64,000 bases of DNA from Peredibacter starrii (GTDB taxonomy: Bacteria; Bdellovibrionota; Bacteriovoracia; Bacteriovoracales; Bacteriovoracaceae). Shown piece by piece: positions 39,382 to 46,646 of this stretch. The notes beneath the pieces were generated by a model. The model ran no database searches and had not been told where the DNA came from. It saw nothing but the letters and a program-made list of their open reading frames with translations. The translations under genes and the position numbers were made by a program. How positions within the stretch are numbered: position 1 is the stretch's first letter; every line of letters starts with the position of its first letter. The DNA is taken from contig NZ_CP139487.1 of the NCBI RefSeq assembly GCF_034259205.1, positions 2,294,001-2,358,000 of the forward strand, written 5' to 3'.

Positions 39382-40989
39382 TTACTCTAGTCTATTACGC
39401 CATTCGATAATCGCATTCTCATATTGAGTTGCGATACTGTCACAATTGGCACCGCAATTATGGCGCTCAGTACGCATTTTACGGACGATTCGCGAGTTAG
39501 AAGGGGTATTAAAATCTACCACGCCTAAAGTCGCATCATGGGCCGTTTGAGCGTTATCTGATGCGTGTCTAGGACTGGTGCTCATGTGGCAACCCACGCA
39601 GCTATAGGCCGAGCTGCGAGAAATGGGATAAACAGTTCCTTGATAGGCCATGAGCGAAGTTTGAGTCTCTGTTCCGCCGCCCGTTCCACCAGTGGTTGTG
39701 CCAGTTGCATCTGTTGGATAAATTTCTTCGAATGAGAATTTAAATCTGTCTCCCGACAGACCCTTGTCCTTGATCACGATCATGGCGTATTTTGAAAGAA
39801 GATTATCACTGGCCGAGGTGATCTTATTTACCAAGGTATAGGCCGAATGTTGAGGTGAGTAGGCGCCGTTAATAAAGAGTTTGATGTTTTTTACTTTAAC
39901 GTTTGAAGGTGCCACGATCCGAGGCTTAGTGAGCTTGTAACTATAAAGATCATAATCCACGATATCGATTTTAAAACTTCCGTTGGGAATTCGAGGCGAA
40001 AGATCAAAGCTCAATGTGATTCCGAAAAAGTCATTCACTTCCTGGCCATTAAAGGCCGGATCTGAAGTGACCACAAAGGCCTGAGCGCGAGCGCCGTCCT
40101 CACGTTGACGAAGTTCCAGAGTATATTCTGTTCCGGCCACGAGATTCATGGAAACATTTAACTGTCGCCATTCAAATCGAGAGCCAGCTGGGAACTCTAC
40201 ATTTCGGGTACTCAGAAGAACTGAAGTTGGTCTCTTGGTGTCTCTTACAGTCATGAAAAACGAATTGTCCTGATCTGTTGGCCCTTGAACCAGACCCCAA
40301 ATGCGATAGGCCCCACTGGTTGGAACTTTGAAATTCATGAAGGCAAGACCTGCGTTTTGGTCATTGTTCGCAAGAGTATTGTTAAGATTATTTTCTACCG
40401 TGAGATAAGGGCCATCGCCTGAATTCACTAGAACCATCGGCGCTTGTCTCATGGCCGCTTCAACATTAATTTTTACCGTATTTGAACTAGGAGCATTTCC
40501 AGCGTCGACAAATTCCATCTCGAGTGTGTCGGTTTCAGAGGTATAAATCGCCAGATCAGAAGGTCCTTCATTATCCACTTCACCGGAAACATCACGGGCC
40601 GCTTTCCAGGATTCAATGGCCCTCTCCATCGCCTGAGCATTGGCCTCGCAATCACTCCAGCAGTTATGGTTTTCACCACGAAGCTTCGCCACAATACGAG
40701 AGGCTGAGATGTTTTCAAAATTTACTTTTTTCTGAGAGACAAGAATGTCATGGGCCTCACGATAGTCATCAGAGGCATGCATTGGTTGAATAGTTGAGTG
40801 ACAGCTAATACAATTTGAACGAGTGATCGAATAAACCGACTTCTGGAAAGATTCATAAGAAGCTTCTGAACCGCTTGAGTGGTAACCACTCTCAAACATG
40901 AGTTCACCGGGTTTACCACAGTTGGTGTAAACCGCCAGGATCGTTCCCAATAAGAAAATGACTGCTAATTTGAAAATATTAAAATTCAA
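39382..40989 (-). CDS. Exported protein with two duplicated CxxCH modules
   Basis: A 535-residue protein with an N-terminal hydrophobic signal (about residues 6-22) ending YTNCG, which may be a variant lipobox with Cys24. It has two haem-type motifs: CISCH at residues 60-64 and CVGCH at 464-468. The regions around them are an internal duplication: each has SV/TVY-x-I-R-S before the motif, HASD-x(5)-HD after it, then SRIV-x-K-R/MR, HNC-x(2-3)-NC/DC and a closing helix with W. Between them lies a beta-rich part. It ends a four-gene minus-strand operon (39382-44262). Covalent haem is plausible, since ccsBA is in the window, but not proven. Confidence 0.75.
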   Translation of the reverse strand: MNFNIFKLAVIFLLGTILAVYTNCGKPGELMFESGYHSSGSEASYESFQKSVYSITRSNCISCHSTIQPMHASDDYREAHDILVSQKKVNFENISASRIVAKLRGENHNCWSDCEANAQAMERAIESWKAARDVSGEVDNEGPSDLAIYTSETDTLEMEFVDAGNAPSSNTVKINVEAAMRQAPMVLVNSGDGPYLTVENNLNNTLANNDQNAGLAFMNFKVPTSGAYRIWGLVQGPTDQDNSFFMTVRDTKRPTSVLLSTRNVEFPAGSRFEWRQLNVSMNLVAGTEYTLELRQREDGARAQAFVVTSDPAFNGQEVNDFFGITLSFDLSPRIPNGSFKIDIVDYDLYSYKLTKPRIVAPSNVKVKNIKLFINGAYSPQHSAYTLVNKITSASDNLLSKYAMIVIKDKGLSGDRFKFSFEEIYPTDATGTTTGGTGGGTETQTSLMAYQGTVYPISRSSAYSCVGCHMSTSPRHASDNAQTAHDATLGVVDFNTPSNSRIVRKMRTERHNCGANCDSIATQYENAIIEWRNRLE

Positions 40990-40998
40990 AATTTCACC

Positions 40999-42450
40999 CT
41001 ATCTTAGTTTATCAAAAACCAGGTAACGATCCAGATTATTTCTAAACGGGTCATCTCCGACCACATTTTCAAAGTTGCCTTCAAGCCCATGAAGGGCGAG
41101 ATAGTTTGCGACCATCGCCTTTGAAGTTGTCACTACGCTGTTACTGGTAAGAAGGGCAGAGCCTTCTACGGCACCATTTGCCTTGAAGTAACCAATCTGA
41201 CGTTTCGTTGTTCTGAGGCCTGGACGACCGTCTTTTTTGTAGACCATCATAAAAGTTGATGAACGCTGACCTGAGTCTCCGGACCAGATAAATTTTCCAG
41301 AGCCATCGACAGTGCCACCGGCCGCAACTCCGCCGTCTGTTAAAACATAAATGACAACATCTGTGTCTTTCACTGCCGCAAGTTCCATAATGGCACCCAT
41401 AAGCTGGCCAAGTTCAAAATCCTTGGTGTCACCTGTGGTTCTTGTGCCGTCGTGATAATCAAATCCACCGAGTGTAATAGTTCCTACACCGATGCGACCT
41501 TCCAGCACTAATTTAGTGATGGCCCGTGAACGATTGCGTACATCTTGATTGTTAATTTTATTAAAAATAGTTTGAGAGTCGGTATCATTGTTCGGATCAA
41601 CGTCAGTTGATTTTACTCGGTATAACTGATCTGAGGATTCAGAAAATCCACATGCCACCAGGGCCTGCACTTGTTCTGGAAGTGAGCGACGTGAAAAACC
41701 AGCGAGCTTTCTTTCGCTGATTCTTGAGGCCGCATTCAGGATGCTTTTAACTTTTGTTTCAGAGAATGAACCAAGAACGTTTCCGGTACTCACGAGGTTA
41801 ATCGCCTCTTGGCGAGAGGTGATTCTCACGGGAGCAACTGCCGGGTTAATGGAGTCAATGGGTGAAGTCGAATTACCACCTGAATCGGTTTGTTGAGTTC
41901 CGGCCAGTTGAGTAAGACTGCCCTTGGCACCGGCCTTGTGTAACCAGTAAATAGGGTTTGATTGATTGTTACCGGTATCATCATCTGAAGTTGAACAAAA
42001 AATGGCCCCTTCAGTTTTGTCACGAGTTCCTTGAGAGGTGATATTGCGAATACCCTGGAGGATCCCTGATCCAGAATGAAAAGCAAGTCCCATTTCAGTG
42101 TTTACCTGTCCAGATTTAGAGGGATGAAAATCATTGGGAAGACCAAGGGAAGCGTAGTTCGCGAGGAAGTCCATTTGTCCTCCAGCGCCGCCAACCATGA
42201 CGTTAGAACCCGCGATATTTCCACCGCCGGCAAGATCAATGATAATGACCGGAGTTAAATGACTGATGATTGCAGGAGAACATTCCGCCGCGTGAGCACT
42301 TGAAGAAAGTAAAGATAGGGCACTTGGTGCGAGAGCAAACGCTGTCATTCCAAGAAAGCCTTGAGCGAGGAAATCACGTCTGGTTTTAAGACGGTGTCCT
42401 TCGTGATACATGGGTTTCAAAACATCATCAACGTCATGTTTCTTCTTCAT
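40999..42450 (-). CDS. Tat-exported DUF1501-like protein
   Basis: A 483-residue protein. A twin-arginine signal is visible (RRDFLAQGFLGMTAFALAPSA, Arg24-Arg25), followed by an Ala-x-Ala site (SSSAHA). The mature protein contains GGGNIAGSN-type glycine stretches and FDYHDGTRTTGDTKDFELG, similar to DUF1501 alkaline-phosphatase-like proteins of Planctomycetes. The ATG at 42450 has AAGGAA upstream and is preferred over a longer form from 42501. DUF1501 genes often sit beside cytochrome-like DUF1549/1588 genes; here too CxxCH proteins flank it. Enzymatic activity is unknown. Confidence 0.7.
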   Translation of the reverse strand: MKKKHDVDDVLKPMYHEGHRLKTRRDFLAQGFLGMTAFALAPSALSLLSSSAHAAECSPAIISHLTPVIIIDLAGGGNIAGSNVMVGGAGGQMDFLANYASLGLPNDFHPSKSGQVNTEMGLAFHSGSGILQGIRNITSQGTRDKTEGAIFCSTSDDDTGNNQSNPIYWLHKAGAKGSLTQLAGTQQTDSGGNSTSPIDSINPAVAPVRITSRQEAINLVSTGNVLGSFSETKVKSILNAASRISERKLAGFSRRSLPEQVQALVACGFSESSDQLYRVKSTDVDPNNDTDSQTIFNKINNQDVRNRSRAITKLVLEGRIGVGTITLGGFDYHDGTRTTGDTKDFELGQLMGAIMELAAVKDTDVVIYVLTDGGVAAGGTVDGSGKFIWSGDSGQRSSTFMMVYKKDGRPGLRTTKRQIGYFKANGAVEGSALLTSNSVVTTSKAMVANYLALHGLEGNFENVVGDDPFRNNLDRYLVFDKLR

Positions 42451-42458
42451 ATATTTCC

Positions 42459-43148
42459 TTAAAGTAGGATCACGTGGGCACTCGAAAGAGTGGCCGTGCA
42501 CAGACCTTTCATGGCCTTTACTGTAAGTGCTGAATTGTTTCCTTCATTGGCCACTGGAGTTGAAAGTTGCACCAGGAGTGCATCGAGTTCCAACTGAGCT
42601 TCTACCAGTTCTTCACCTTCTACCATTCCGAGCCAAAACGCATCGATGACACTGTTAATGGCATCTGTTCTTCGTGCCGGTGCCATTTCTGCTCCCGGCG
42701 CCATCCCGAAATTAAACGTTGGCCACACCACAGTTCTTAGTGTCTGACTATCAACCAATGAGTTACAAAATTGGGCCGCGAGTTTTGAAACAGCGATTTG
42801 ATGAGTAGGTGAAAAGACCTTTACGTCATTTCCGGTAGGAAGAGAAAGTGCCACTTCATTATACACTCTCATAACATCGTTATTTGTCTGAGGATCAACA
42901 CCAGTGAGTGTTGCCATGGTTTGAAGAATCTGTTCATGGTTTTTGATCCCGACTGATACTTGAGTCTCATTCAGCTCTTGTTCTTCACTCTTAGGCACAC
43001 TTGATGGAGGCGTATAATTACTATACTCAGAGTCAGTGTGCTTAATGTCCAAAGTGTTACTCGGCATACAATGAGTAAAGGTCACGAGGAGAATCCCGAG
43101 CATCAGGATTGCAGTCATTTTGACTGCGATTTTATTATTCATCTTCAT
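42459..43148 (-). CDS. Probable lipoprotein of unknown function
   Basis: A 229-residue protein with a hydrophobic leader (about residues 10-26) ending in FTHC, where Cys27 could be lipidated, though His at -1 is unusual. The mature part is acidic and mostly helical, with no CxxCH motif. It overlaps the upstream secreted CxxCH gene by 14 bases and lies 8 bases before the Tat protein, in the middle of the operon. I do not recognise a family. Confidence 0.65.
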   Translation of the reverse strand: MKMNNKIAVKMTAILMLGILLVTFTHCMPSNTLDIKHTDSEYSNYTPPSSVPKSEEQELNETQVSVGIKNHEQILQTMATLTGVDPQTNNDVMRVYNEVALSLPTGNDVKVFSPTHQIAVSKLAAQFCNSLVDSQTLRTVVWPTFNFGMAPGAEMAPARRTDAINSVIDAFWLGMVEGEELVEAQLELDALLVQLSTPVANEGNNSALTVKAMKGLCTATLSSAHVILL

Positions 43149-44262
43149 CGGTAATACATCCCACTGAAGTGTTCACAATTAAGTTTTTAAGATTGTAATT
43201 ATCTTGCTCAAATTCATTGGCGAGACTGTCAACCGTCGCCTTATCATCAGTATTGACGGCATCTTTCATGCACACGAGTTGAAAGACCTTTGAAGCAATA
43301 CAAGCTGAGAAGGCCTTCGACTGCGAGAACATCTGACCGATGGCCTTAGCACCACTTCCAGTTGTGTTTCCGCGCCAGCCAAGTTTTGCGTTCTGGCCCT
43401 GGGCCCAGAGGTTTAACCAGGAGTCATCAGTCGTCACATAAGCATCTGAGTGATAAACATTGTGATTCATTTTGGTCACAACTGTTCCTTGCGTGTAATT
43501 CAGGCGACCACTTACAAAATCATAGTAGGCGTAGGCGCCACCAAGAGCGTCCTGGCCCGCGTGACAACCAACACATTTATTTTTGTAGGTTCGCGCGTCT
43601 CCACCTGGTTTTCTCTCCACGTCTCCGCGTACTCGAAAATCCGGAATAGTCACGTCATGAAGTTCCTCATAGTCTTTACAGAGATAATTCATGAATATGA
43701 ATCGATTCACGCGACGATTGGTTCCCGCAGAGAAGAAGGCCTCACCAGCAGCGCGAGTGGTTGTAACTCCTGCAACTGCGGTGGCCGGAAGACCCGTCAT
43801 GGCAGACTGAGTTTGCCTTACCAGATTGTCTTTCAGATTGAGATTTCTTGATTCGGCATTTTTATAGTGATCATTATTTGTGAATGAATAGGCCGGAGTC
43901 GCACCAGAAACCGTATAAAGAATGTCACTGTGAAGAACCTGGGCAAATGGAACTTCGTCACGAACCACACCAATGATGGTGGCAACGTAATCGTTTAGAT
44001 CCGCCCGAGAAGTTTGCTCGCGGTTACTCCAGGGTTTAATCCAGTTCTTCAAAACGATGTTGTAGAAATTTGGATTATTCATGGCGACTTTCGCCGCATC
44101 TTCTGCACGGCCGCCACGAATATGGTTTGTCATTACCTCTAACACATCTTTTTTCGGCGGAACTCCGGTCAAGCGGTTGTGGAGTTTCCACGCTTGCTCT
44201 TTCGGGCCGGCCCATGTGTGAGAGACCATGAGAATAGCTAGAAATAATAATCGCTTTTTCAA
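43135..44262 (-). CDS. Secreted CxxCH-containing protein, first gene of the export cluster
   Basis: A 375-residue protein with a signal peptide (MKKRLLFLAILMVSHTWAG). A single haem-type motif, KCVGCHAGQDALGG, lies near residues 228-240, so a monohaem c-type cytochrome role is possible. The region before it, including SYFxx-like helical stretches and DVERKPGGDARTYKNK, resembles cytochrome-like proteins found next to DUF1501 genes. The first gene of a four-gene operon, it is divergent from the LspA-like gene with about 117 bases between starts. Confidence 0.7.
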   Translation of the reverse strand: MKKRLLFLAILMVSHTWAGPKEQAWKLHNRLTGVPPKKDVLEVMTNHIRGGRAEDAAKVAMNNPNFYNIVLKNWIKPWSNREQTSRADLNDYVATIIGVVRDEVPFAQVLHSDILYTVSGATPAYSFTNNDHYKNAESRNLNLKDNLVRQTQSAMTGLPATAVAGVTTTRAAGEAFFSAGTNRRVNRFIFMNYLCKDYEELHDVTIPDFRVRGDVERKPGGDARTYKNKCVGCHAGQDALGGAYAYYDFVSGRLNYTQGTVVTKMNHNVYHSDAYVTTDDSWLNLWAQGQNAKLGWRGNTTGSGAKAIGQMFSQSKAFSACIASKVFQLVCMKDAVNTDDKATVDSLANEFEQDNYNLKNLIVNTSVGCITDEDE

Positions 44263-44379: not shown

Positions 44380-45207
44380 ATGAACAAAAGATTTCTTATA
44401 TCAGGATTAATCCTGGTGATAAGTATAGTAGTGGATCAGCTCACCAAATGGTGGGGGATGACCCTTTCTACCCTGCATTTCAATCAGGGTTTTATCATGG
44501 GTCTCTATGCAAATCTTCCCGACAATATTCGAATTGTGGCCCTGGGCTGTTTTGCGGGGCTGGTGTTTTTCGTTTACGTGTTCTTGATGTACATCATTCC
44601 ATCACGCGCGAGTATTTTGAAATACGGTCTTTCACTTTTAGTAGGTGGAATGTTTGGAAACGTGATCGATAAAATTATCTATGGAAAAACCATCGACTTC
44701 ATTCCGTTCAATGGAACTGTTTTTAATTTCGCCGATGTCTTCTTGTGGGTCGGGGTCGCACTGGTTTTGTTCGTCATTTTCGGGAAAGAAAAGCTCGTTT
44801 GGCATCCAGATTCTATGAGAGGCAATTATCTTATCTGGCCCAAAGAGCAGTACAAGGTCGGATTAAACTTTGCGTTGGTAGTTTTTTCATGCTCTTTGAT
44901 TTTAGGGATATTTTCATTTTCGTTTTTTAACACCTCGGTTTCACCATTTATCACGAACAAACAGCACCTCATGCTGACGTATTTTCTAACTTATATTTTG
45001 ATCACTTTATTATTCTGCTCCATGGCCTTCCTGGCCGGAATTGTAATTAGTCACAAAAGTGCGGGCCCTCTCTACGCTTTTGAACTTTATGTAGATGATT
45101 TAATTGAAGGGAAGGACCGTAAGCTCACTTTCCGTGATGGCGACAACTATCGTGACCTCGAACAGGTGGCCGATCGTCTCCGAGATTACATTAATAAGCA
45201 TAAATGA
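44380..45207 (+). CDS. Signal peptidase II-like protein with extra membrane and HAMP-like C-terminal segments
   Basis: A 275-residue protein. Residues 1-140 match LspA: VDQLTKWW (residues 18-25), the catalytic aspartates Asp97 in GNVIDKI and Asp119 in FNFADVF, and four membrane helices. LspA normally ends near residue 160-170. Here two more helices follow (about 161-182 and 199-222), then a hydrophilic segment (223-272) with a Pro and the DLEQVADRLRDYI pattern typical of HAMP linkers. The ATG at 44380 has AGAAG upstream; earlier in-frame codons lack a ribosome site. It may be a lipoprotein signal peptidase with an added module, or a repurposed homologue. Confidence 0.78.
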   Translation: MNKRFLISGLILVISIVVDQLTKWWGMTLSTLHFNQGFIMGLYANLPDNIRIVALGCFAGLVFFVYVFLMYIIPSRASILKYGLSLLVGGMFGNVIDKIIYGKTIDFIPFNGTVFNFADVFLWVGVALVLFVIFGKEKLVWHPDSMRGNYLIWPKEQYKVGLNFALVVFSCSLILGIFSFSFFNTSVSPFITNKQHLMLTYFLTYILITLLFCSMAFLAGIVISHKSAGPLYAFELYVDDLIEGKDRKLTFRDGDNYRDLEQVADRLRDYINKHK

Positions 45208-45290: not shown

Positions 45291-46646
45291 ATGAAATTTT
45301 TCCTTCTAGGTCTTTTGTTTGTGACGTCTGCTTTTGCCAGCAATGATCTATCACACAGACCAAAATCATTTCTAACGAGCAGTGGAAAAGCTGTATTTGT
45401 AGATTTCACAACTGCCGACTACACCATCAATTACGACATTACTTCACGTCGTGCGGTTGCAACCGCCATGATTAAGTTCTTCGCCCCTGAAGCTGGTATG
45501 CCGATCTTTGACAGTTACGCAGATCCATCTTTCGTGGTTCTCAATGGCCAGAACGTTTCAAGCTTCTCAACAAAAACTCCCGGCCGCGAAACGACTCTCC
45601 GTGTAGTTAATCAAAACGTTGCCGTAGGTAACCATACGCTTTCTGTAACTGTTCCACTTACCACACTCGTTGATTACGTTGATGGTGGTGTGAAGAGTGC
45701 TTTCTGGGCCTCTGACCTTGATGACCGCCGCTTCCTTGAGCGCTACATGCCCGCAAACTTCGAGTTCGATCAAGTTAAAATGACACTTACTCTTAATTTC
45801 CTGGGCGCTAAAACAATTCAAAACGTCTACACCAACGGTGTGGTTGAAGAAGTTAAAGCTGGTACCTACAAAATCAATTATCCGGCCCATTACACTTCAT
45901 CGAGTATTTTCTTTCATACAACTCCTGCATCAAGTGTAGTTGAAACTCGTTATTCACTTAAATCAATCGATGGCCGTGAAATCCCAGTTGTTATCTACGT
46001 TACTAAATCTGCTTCTGCAGCAACTGCTCTTGATCAAATGAAAGCGGCAGCTACTGACGTTTTCCAAGAGCTTGAGCGCGACTACGGCGCTTGGCCTCAC
46101 CCATCACTTACAATCTACAACGCCGGCTCAGGCGGCATGGAGTACTGTGGTGCTACCATGACTTCAGTAAGCGCAGTTGGGCATGAGATGTTTCACTCAT
46201 ACTTCGCCCGTGGTGTAATGCCGGCCAATGGTAACACAGGTTGGTTAGATGAGGCCTTGGCCTCTTGGAGAGACAAAGGTTACCAATCCATTTCTGTTCT
46301 TTCAGGCACAAGCATGATGTCGAACAGACTTTATTACACTCGCCATACTGATTACTCAGCTTACTCATTTGGTGAGCGTTTCATGAGCTATATGGACAAC
46401 AAACTTTCTTCGAAGGGCGGCCTTAAACCTTTCATGCGCCATATGGTTGAGAATCGTCGATTTGCTCCATTATTCGTTGAAGAGTTCATTCAAGAAATGA
46501 GTCAGTTCTATGGCGTATCTCTTGAAGACGATTTCAAGAAATACACTTTCGGAACAAAAAATAAATTCGACTACAATAAGAGCATGCAGACTGTTCCTCA
46601 CATGCACCAAAAACTTTCTCTCGAACAACTTCAAGAACTTCTCTAA
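45291..46646 (+). CDS. Secreted M1-like zinc metallopeptidase
   Basis: A 451-residue protein with a signal peptide (MKFFLLGLLFVTSAFAS). The zinc site is HEMFH (His298, Glu299, His302) and the third ligand Glu321 lies in WLDEALASW, which gives HExxH-x18-E as in M1 aminopeptidases. An N-terminal beta-rich domain of about 200 residues precedes it. The GAMEN exopeptidase motif is replaced by a GGMEYCGA stretch. It therefore may not be a strict aminopeptidase. Well-placed AAGGAG ribosome site. A strong terminator follows. Confidence 0.82.
   Translation: MKFFLLGLLFVTSAFASNDLSHRPKSFLTSSGKAVFVDFTTADYTINYDITSRRAVATAMIKFFAPEAGMPIFDSYADPSFVVLNGQNVSSFSTKTPGRETTLRVVNQNVAVGNHTLSVTVPLTTLVDYVDGGVKSAFWASDLDDRRFLERYMPANFEFDQVKMTLTLNFLGAKTIQNVYTNGVVEEVKAGTYKINYPAHYTSSSIFFHTTPASSVVETRYSLKSIDGREIPVVIYVTKSASAATALDQMKAAATDVFQELERDYGAWPHPSLTIYNAGSGGMEYCGATMTSVSAVGHEMFHSYFARGVMPANGNTGWLDEALASWRDKGYQSISVLSGTSMMSNRLYYTRHTDYSAYSFGERFMSYMDNKLSSKGGLKPFMRHMVENRRFAPLFVEEFIQEMSQFYGVSLEDDFKKYTFGTKNKFDYNKSMQTVPHMHQKLSLEQLQELL

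Follow-up and report, generated by a model that had tools for sequence, protein, structure and literature searches.

An LspA-TM-TM-HAMP fusion encoded in Peredibacter starrii is probably a dedicated second signal peptidase II with a shifted lipobox specificity. The gene lies in a 64,000 nt stretch of genome, referred to here as the window (GCF_034259205.1, contig NZ_CP139487.1, positions 2,294,001-2,358,000 of the forward strand). Its product joins a peptidase core with an intact catalytic dyad to two added helices and a HAMP-like tail, and belongs to a single clade that is separate from canonical LspA. It is accompanied by a conserved neighborhood in which the two main lipoproteins carry [FY][TN][HQN]-Cys in place of [LV][ASTVI][GAS]-Cys, a switch that follows the presence of the fusion across genomes. 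The features of the gene and its neighbors are collected in Table 1.

Table 1. Coordinates of the fusion, its predicted parts and the neighboring genes, counted from the first nucleotide of the window.
Feature	Position	Strand	Details
LspA-TM-TM-HAMP protein P0001	44380..45207	+	275 aa, ATG start; full-length relatives across Bdellovibrionota
LspA core, residues 1-137	44380..44790	+	Z 14.7 against 6ryo_A; conservation in 110 members
Linker, residues 138-153, with W141 and R147	44791..44838	+	Conservation; Q157 lies just beyond
Two added long helices, residues 154-190 and 194-225	44839..45054	+	AlphaFold; the second continues to 242
HAMP-like helix-connector-helix, residues 226-275	45055..45204	+	Z 6.7 against 2y21_G; C-terminal, without a domain beyond
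Secreted CxxCH protein, weak PSD2/DUF1585 match	43135..44262	-	Pfam PSD2 1.1e-4, below cut-off
Operon lipoprotein 1, 229 aa, lipobox FTH-C	42459..43148	-	Homologues in 28/118 relatives
Operon protein with RRDFL twin-arginine-like N-terminus	40999..42501	-	Conserved in 12 neighborhoods
Operon lipoprotein 2, 535 aa, two CxxCH, lipobox YTN-C	39382..40989	-	Box switch in second family
Secreted Peptidase_M1-like protein, downstream of the fusion	45291..46646	+	Weak Peptidase_M1 match, 0.0038

Peptidase core and paralogs

The sole Pfam match of the fusion is Peptidase_A8 (PF01252), which covers residues 11-133 at 58.2 bits against a cut-off of 25. The AlphaFold model (pLDDT 86, pTM 0.75) places the four LspA helices first, followed by long helices at residues 154-190 and 194-242, a connector and a final helix at 259-274, in agreement with the two added helices and HAMP-like tail described in a first-pass annotation made from the sequence. 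The four-TM LspA fold is present, with an rmsd of 3.1 over 132 residues to 6ryo_A and a Z score of 14.5 to 5dir. Core residues of the window protein comprise D19, K23, N35, N94, D97, K98, D106, N116 and D119, so that both catalytic aspartates are kept, as the annotation had read them, with D106 encoded at 44695-44697 and D119 at 44734-44736. Across 110 fusion members, Asp is found at one site of the dyad in 108 and at the other in 109, while N94, D97 and N116 are almost invariant and K98 of the window protein is R in most. Conservation extends into the linker (W141 in 107/110, R147 in 109/110, Q157 in 108/110) and through the tail (G229 in 110/110, R252 and D255 in 108/110).

The near-invariance of the dyad, N94, D97 and N116, together with the gene's association with lipoproteins, makes a peptidase far more likely than a signaling protein derived from a dead LspA. 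The annotation had left open the choice between a regulated peptidase and such a signaling protein; of these a peptidase is favored, and its regulation is no more than a suggestion from the HAMP-like fold of the tail. A dead enzyme was ruled out for the window protein by its intact dyad, changed dyads being confined to two divergent fusion paralogs (K/G in L062:4845-5750 and N/D in L071:3806-4720) that are likely pseudo-enzymes. A broken gene that has lost an output domain was also ruled out, as relatives stop at approximately the same point and the tail is conserved; the annotation was right that no output domain follows. Elsewhere in the family, one LspA-HAMP fusion (L055:3921-5378) has an extension that by eye is peroxiredoxin-like (AhpC/TSA-type) and adjoins a lipoprotein with an LQNC box. 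One in-frame stop was reported in the matched stretches L015 and L016 (from G030 and G069), where it probably sits at the edge of the match, and these orthologs are otherwise intact.

The full-length beta-cradle, which is usual in LspA but does not decide membership, is absent from the window protein, in which the segment between K23 and N35 has 12 aa compared with 27 in the canonical LspA of the same genome; the first-pass annotation does not mention this shortening. Cradle lengths are 9-14 residues in the subgroup of the window protein and 22-25 in the Bdellovibrionia group. The short cradle does not strictly match the odd boxes described below, as it is missing in some odd-box cases.

Three A8 genes are found in the single-contig 4.15 Mb genome: the window gene, a second fusion and a housekeeping lspA. 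The last of these, an ordinary lspA whose existence the annotation had raised, lies at 177126-177560 of the genome, adjacent to an Lgt-like gene, and encodes 175 aa (131 bits). The second fusion (L002:1108-1935; G000:C1 about 1544370-1545197) has 275 aa and a 22-residue cradle, and is flanked by ArsR-like and methionyl-tRNA-synthetase-like genes; no odd-box lipoprotein partner was found nearby. Against the NCBIfam lspA equivalog TIGR00077 the window fusion scores 34.4 bits, under the cut-off of 73.95, and in LspA-domain trees 75 fusions and 39 canonical LspA sequences fall on opposite sides of one branch with support 100/100. The tree and the separate lspA beside the Lgt-like gene rule out the window gene as the housekeeping enzyme, and since a single branch splits the two groups the fusion looks, from these sequences, like one old event. 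Of 26 genomes of the same genus, 12 encode a full-length relative; in the family such relatives are scattered, and among the Bdellovibrionia most genomes have one. When 84,980 species were scanned, the names attached to the best 80 loci were of Bdellovibrionota type or were unspecific MAG names, one bin labeled Streptomyces being the exception.

Lipoboxes of the linked lipoproteins

The fusion forms part of or adjoins one conserved operon in roughly twelve genomes of the family, with the order CxxCH/PSD2-like protein, lipoprotein of ~230 aa, twin-arginine-like protein, CxxCH lipoprotein of ~450-535 aa and then the fusion. Frequent further members are a CxxCH outer-membrane-like protein, a TPR protein, a small CxxCH lipoprotein and a YceI protein. 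Within the window's genus, fusion and linked operon are divergently oriented; in the window the operon opens 117 bp away with the secreted CxxCH/PSD2 protein, which is kept in 15 of the neighborhoods compared. The twin-arginine-like protein is DUF1501-like by eye and has no Pfam match. The M1-like gene is linked in the window's genus only (4 loci) and its membership in the system is uncertain. The fusion of Bdellovibrionia has different linked genes, and the boxes nearby are mostly ordinary.

The published lipobox consensus is [LV][ASTVI][GAS]C (PMC8689077). The boxes of the two main operon lipoproteins are FTHC, YTHC, FNHC, YNQC, YTQC, FTQC, YTNC and YNNC, with an aromatic residue at -3, Thr or Asn at -2 and His, Gln or Asn at -1, the last holding for both lipoproteins in every linked copy examined. 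Neither the neighboring lipoproteins nor their boxes appear in the first-pass annotation of the fusion. The remaining lipoproteins of these regions, the small operon lipoprotein among them, have Gly, Ala or Ser at -1. Lipoproteins were called with a simple script and not with SignalP; in an 864 kb sample of the P. starrii genome this gave 48 G/A/S boxes, and the two operon lipoproteins alone had H/N/Q boxes. The same test applied to one fusion-free relative gave 17 ordinary boxes and no H/N/Q box, a looser test adding one doubtful SLN-C. A Bdellovibrio-type genome that carries the fusion has YQNC, FQNC and FQNC among ~36 boxes, two of them on CxxCH proteins. Near the fusion in three further Bdellovibrionia loci (L296, L300 and L301), a lipoprotein has FN-C, SH-C or SQ-C where relatives have G or S at the same place.

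The association between box and fusion was examined for the 229-aa lipoprotein family in 369 genomes. An H/Q/N box is found in 44 of 51 genomes with the fusion and in 2 of 19 without it (Fisher p 6e-9, without phylogenetic correction). The other 17 fusion-free genomes have ordinary boxes on these homologues, and both exceptions are incomplete assemblies. Odd boxes with the fusion undetected occur in G172, where the contig ends at the expected start of the fusion, and in G021, which is 91% complete, has its odd-box genes on short contigs and, unlike sister genomes, in which the M1-like gene goes along with the fusion, also has no close homologue of that gene. The 535-aa family shows the same switch by profile search. 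Throughout, the cysteine is invariant while the -1 residue alternates between G/A/S and H/Q/N. Unlinked paralogs with ordinary boxes are found in several fusion-bearing genomes (G001, G011, G060, G121, G129, G134 and G138).

Operon inheritance by itself would yield such a correlation, and the fusion could be an ordinary, redundant signal peptidase II, with canonical LspA also cutting the odd boxes and the two traits simply co-inherited. Asn at -1 in one atypical box is indeed reported elsewhere without a special LspA: the metallo-beta-lactamase CIM-1 of Chryseobacterium, with box FLNC, is described as potentially lipidated (PMC10920655), so that Asn at -1 may need no special peptidase. We nevertheless consider redundancy unlikely, as odd boxes appear repeatedly beside the fusion on lipoproteins whose mature parts are unrelated. 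Six divergent fusions directly adjoin a lipoprotein gene, at distances of -3 to 51 bp, and the boxes of these lipoproteins are YQNC, FQNC, LQNC, YNNC, YQNC and FQNC; BLAST among the six aligns essentially only the signal peptides, which argues for a functional pair over operon inheritance. Odd boxes are also found unlinked to the fusion in fusion-bearing Bdellovibrionia, where the 229-aa family has FNNC, FQNC, MQNC or FNC in 10 of 12 genomes sampled, and in fusion-free genomes both lipoprotein families have G/A/S boxes.

The HAMP-like tail

HAMP domains are dimeric helical bundles known from sensors. Among solved structures, residues 226-275 best match 2y21, the HAMP domain of Af1503 (Z 6.7, rmsd 2.5 Å over 50/52 residues), followed by 2y0t_A (Z 6.0), and in the model the HAMP fold is continuous with the transmembrane helix, which runs on into a helix-connector-helix as in known HAMP domains. 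For helical segments this short, Z scores of 6-7 are modest. Pfam HAMP (PF00672) is absent at E<=10 from all 22 fusion members tested, so the profile search proposed with the first-pass annotation did not bear out a HAMP link by sequence. A HAMP scan of the P. starrii genome gave no signal at the window gene, and hhalign of the tail against HAMP domains of the same genome gave a probability of 14% with the alignment in register. HAMP identity by sequence was set aside on these results and kept as a HAMP fold from the structural match; since the Z scores are modest and sequence profiles fail to recover HAMP, we name the tail “HAMP-like”. The annotation had named, as evidence against its reading, a tail without HAMP similarity that is common in LspA of related genomes. 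This combination is not observed: sequence similarity is weak, but the predicted fold matches HAMP, and in the tree the tail is common only in the separate paralog clade and not in canonical LspA. Known HAMP domains also lie between sensor and output domains, whereas the tail is C-terminal to the peptidase and the chain ends after it.

Two other proteins touch on this subject. A stand-alone 2TM protein of ~185 aa akin to the fusion tail (L073:3961-4518; G000:C1 about 201960-202517) is found in nearly all relatives and has no Pfam match, and an ORF of 1835 aa with about a dozen consecutive HAMP repeats (G000:C1:2861106-2864300) is probably a large sensor kinase.

The HAMP fold of the tail, the stand-alone occurrence of the related 2TM-HAMP stretch and the loss of dyad residues in two divergent members would all suit a sensor, in which the LspA fold binds uncleaved odd-box prolipoproteins or their signal peptides but hardly cuts them, passing a signal to a partner protein via TM5-6 and HAMP. 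Retention of the dyad in 108-109 of 110 members speaks against this, as does the window protein's ending without an output domain, and a comparison of neighborhoods with Pfam found no conserved signaling partner beside the fusion; we regard a sensor as improbable. Returning to a peptidase, we tentatively suggest that the tail most likely dimerizes the enzyme and may modulate it.

Proposed maturation route and significance

The least probable explanation, to which we give very little weight, is that the odd-box cysteines are unlipidated, the proteins membrane-anchored or cut elsewhere and the fusion directed at another substrate; the departure from the published consensus (PMC8689077) and the CxxCH motifs in many odd-box proteins, where cysteines serve other uses, would fit, but the cysteine persists through the -1 switch and is preceded by signal-peptide-like n- and h-regions.

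In LspA, two aspartates cut before the lipidated cysteine, and LspA antibiotics mimic lipobox residues (PMC8689077). We infer cleavage, specificity, dimerization and regulation by the fusion as follows. In operon prolipoproteins with [FY][TN][HQN]-Cys, the cysteine would be lipidated by Lgt. The housekeeping LspA, with its preference for Gly, Ala or Ser before the cysteine, would process these odd boxes inefficiently, if at all; their cleavage would fall to the LspA-HAMP paralog and its own D106/D119 dyad. The simplest reading is a changed pocket that admits His, Gln or Asn at -1, presumably through changes around the FNxADxFQWxG motif and the shortened beta-cradle. Dimerization would most likely come from helices 5-6 together with the HAMP-like tail, and the same elements may couple cleavage to a membrane or cytoplasmic state.

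The fusion shares with LspA (MEROPS A8, PF01252; 5dir, 6ryo) the four-helix core, the Asp dyad and the conserved Asn/Asp around it. It differs in its separate clade, shortened cradle, QW after the second Asp motif and 138 extra residues after the core, and in being linked to odd-box lipoproteins rather than to lgt. Myxococcus xanthus likewise has several LspA copies with separate roles (LspA1-4), but LspA3-4 lie in an antibiotic cluster, and neither a HAMP tail nor a lipobox switch is described there (PMC8689077). CIM-1 (FLNC) and Ycf48 (CVSC) are single lipoproteins with non-canonical boxes; in the parts of those reports available they are isolated cases for which no dedicated peptidase is proposed, and CVSC keeps Ser at -1. 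A literature search on LspA with HAMP, and on lipobox or LspA with Bdellovibrio, found nothing on the fusion or the odd-box system.

To our knowledge, the lipobox is generally regarded as nearly universal, and a single LspA in each cell as the rule. If the proposal is true, a paralog paired with a changed lipobox makes LspA specificity directly testable and an orthogonal lipidation tag becomes available, and globomycin-type inhibitors would be affected should the second enzyme be less sensitive. In that case, lipoprotein predictors based on the [GAS]-Cys consensus may also overlook some of the lipoproteins that predatory bacteria make. For the Bdellovibrionota as a whole we consider it quite possible, though just short of probable, that two insulated maturation lines exist, LspA for [GAS]-Cys and HAMP-tailed LspA for [HQN]-Cys, forming an orthogonal enzyme-signal pair that could gate lipoproteins, many of them with CxxCH heme-type motifs, upon a signal.
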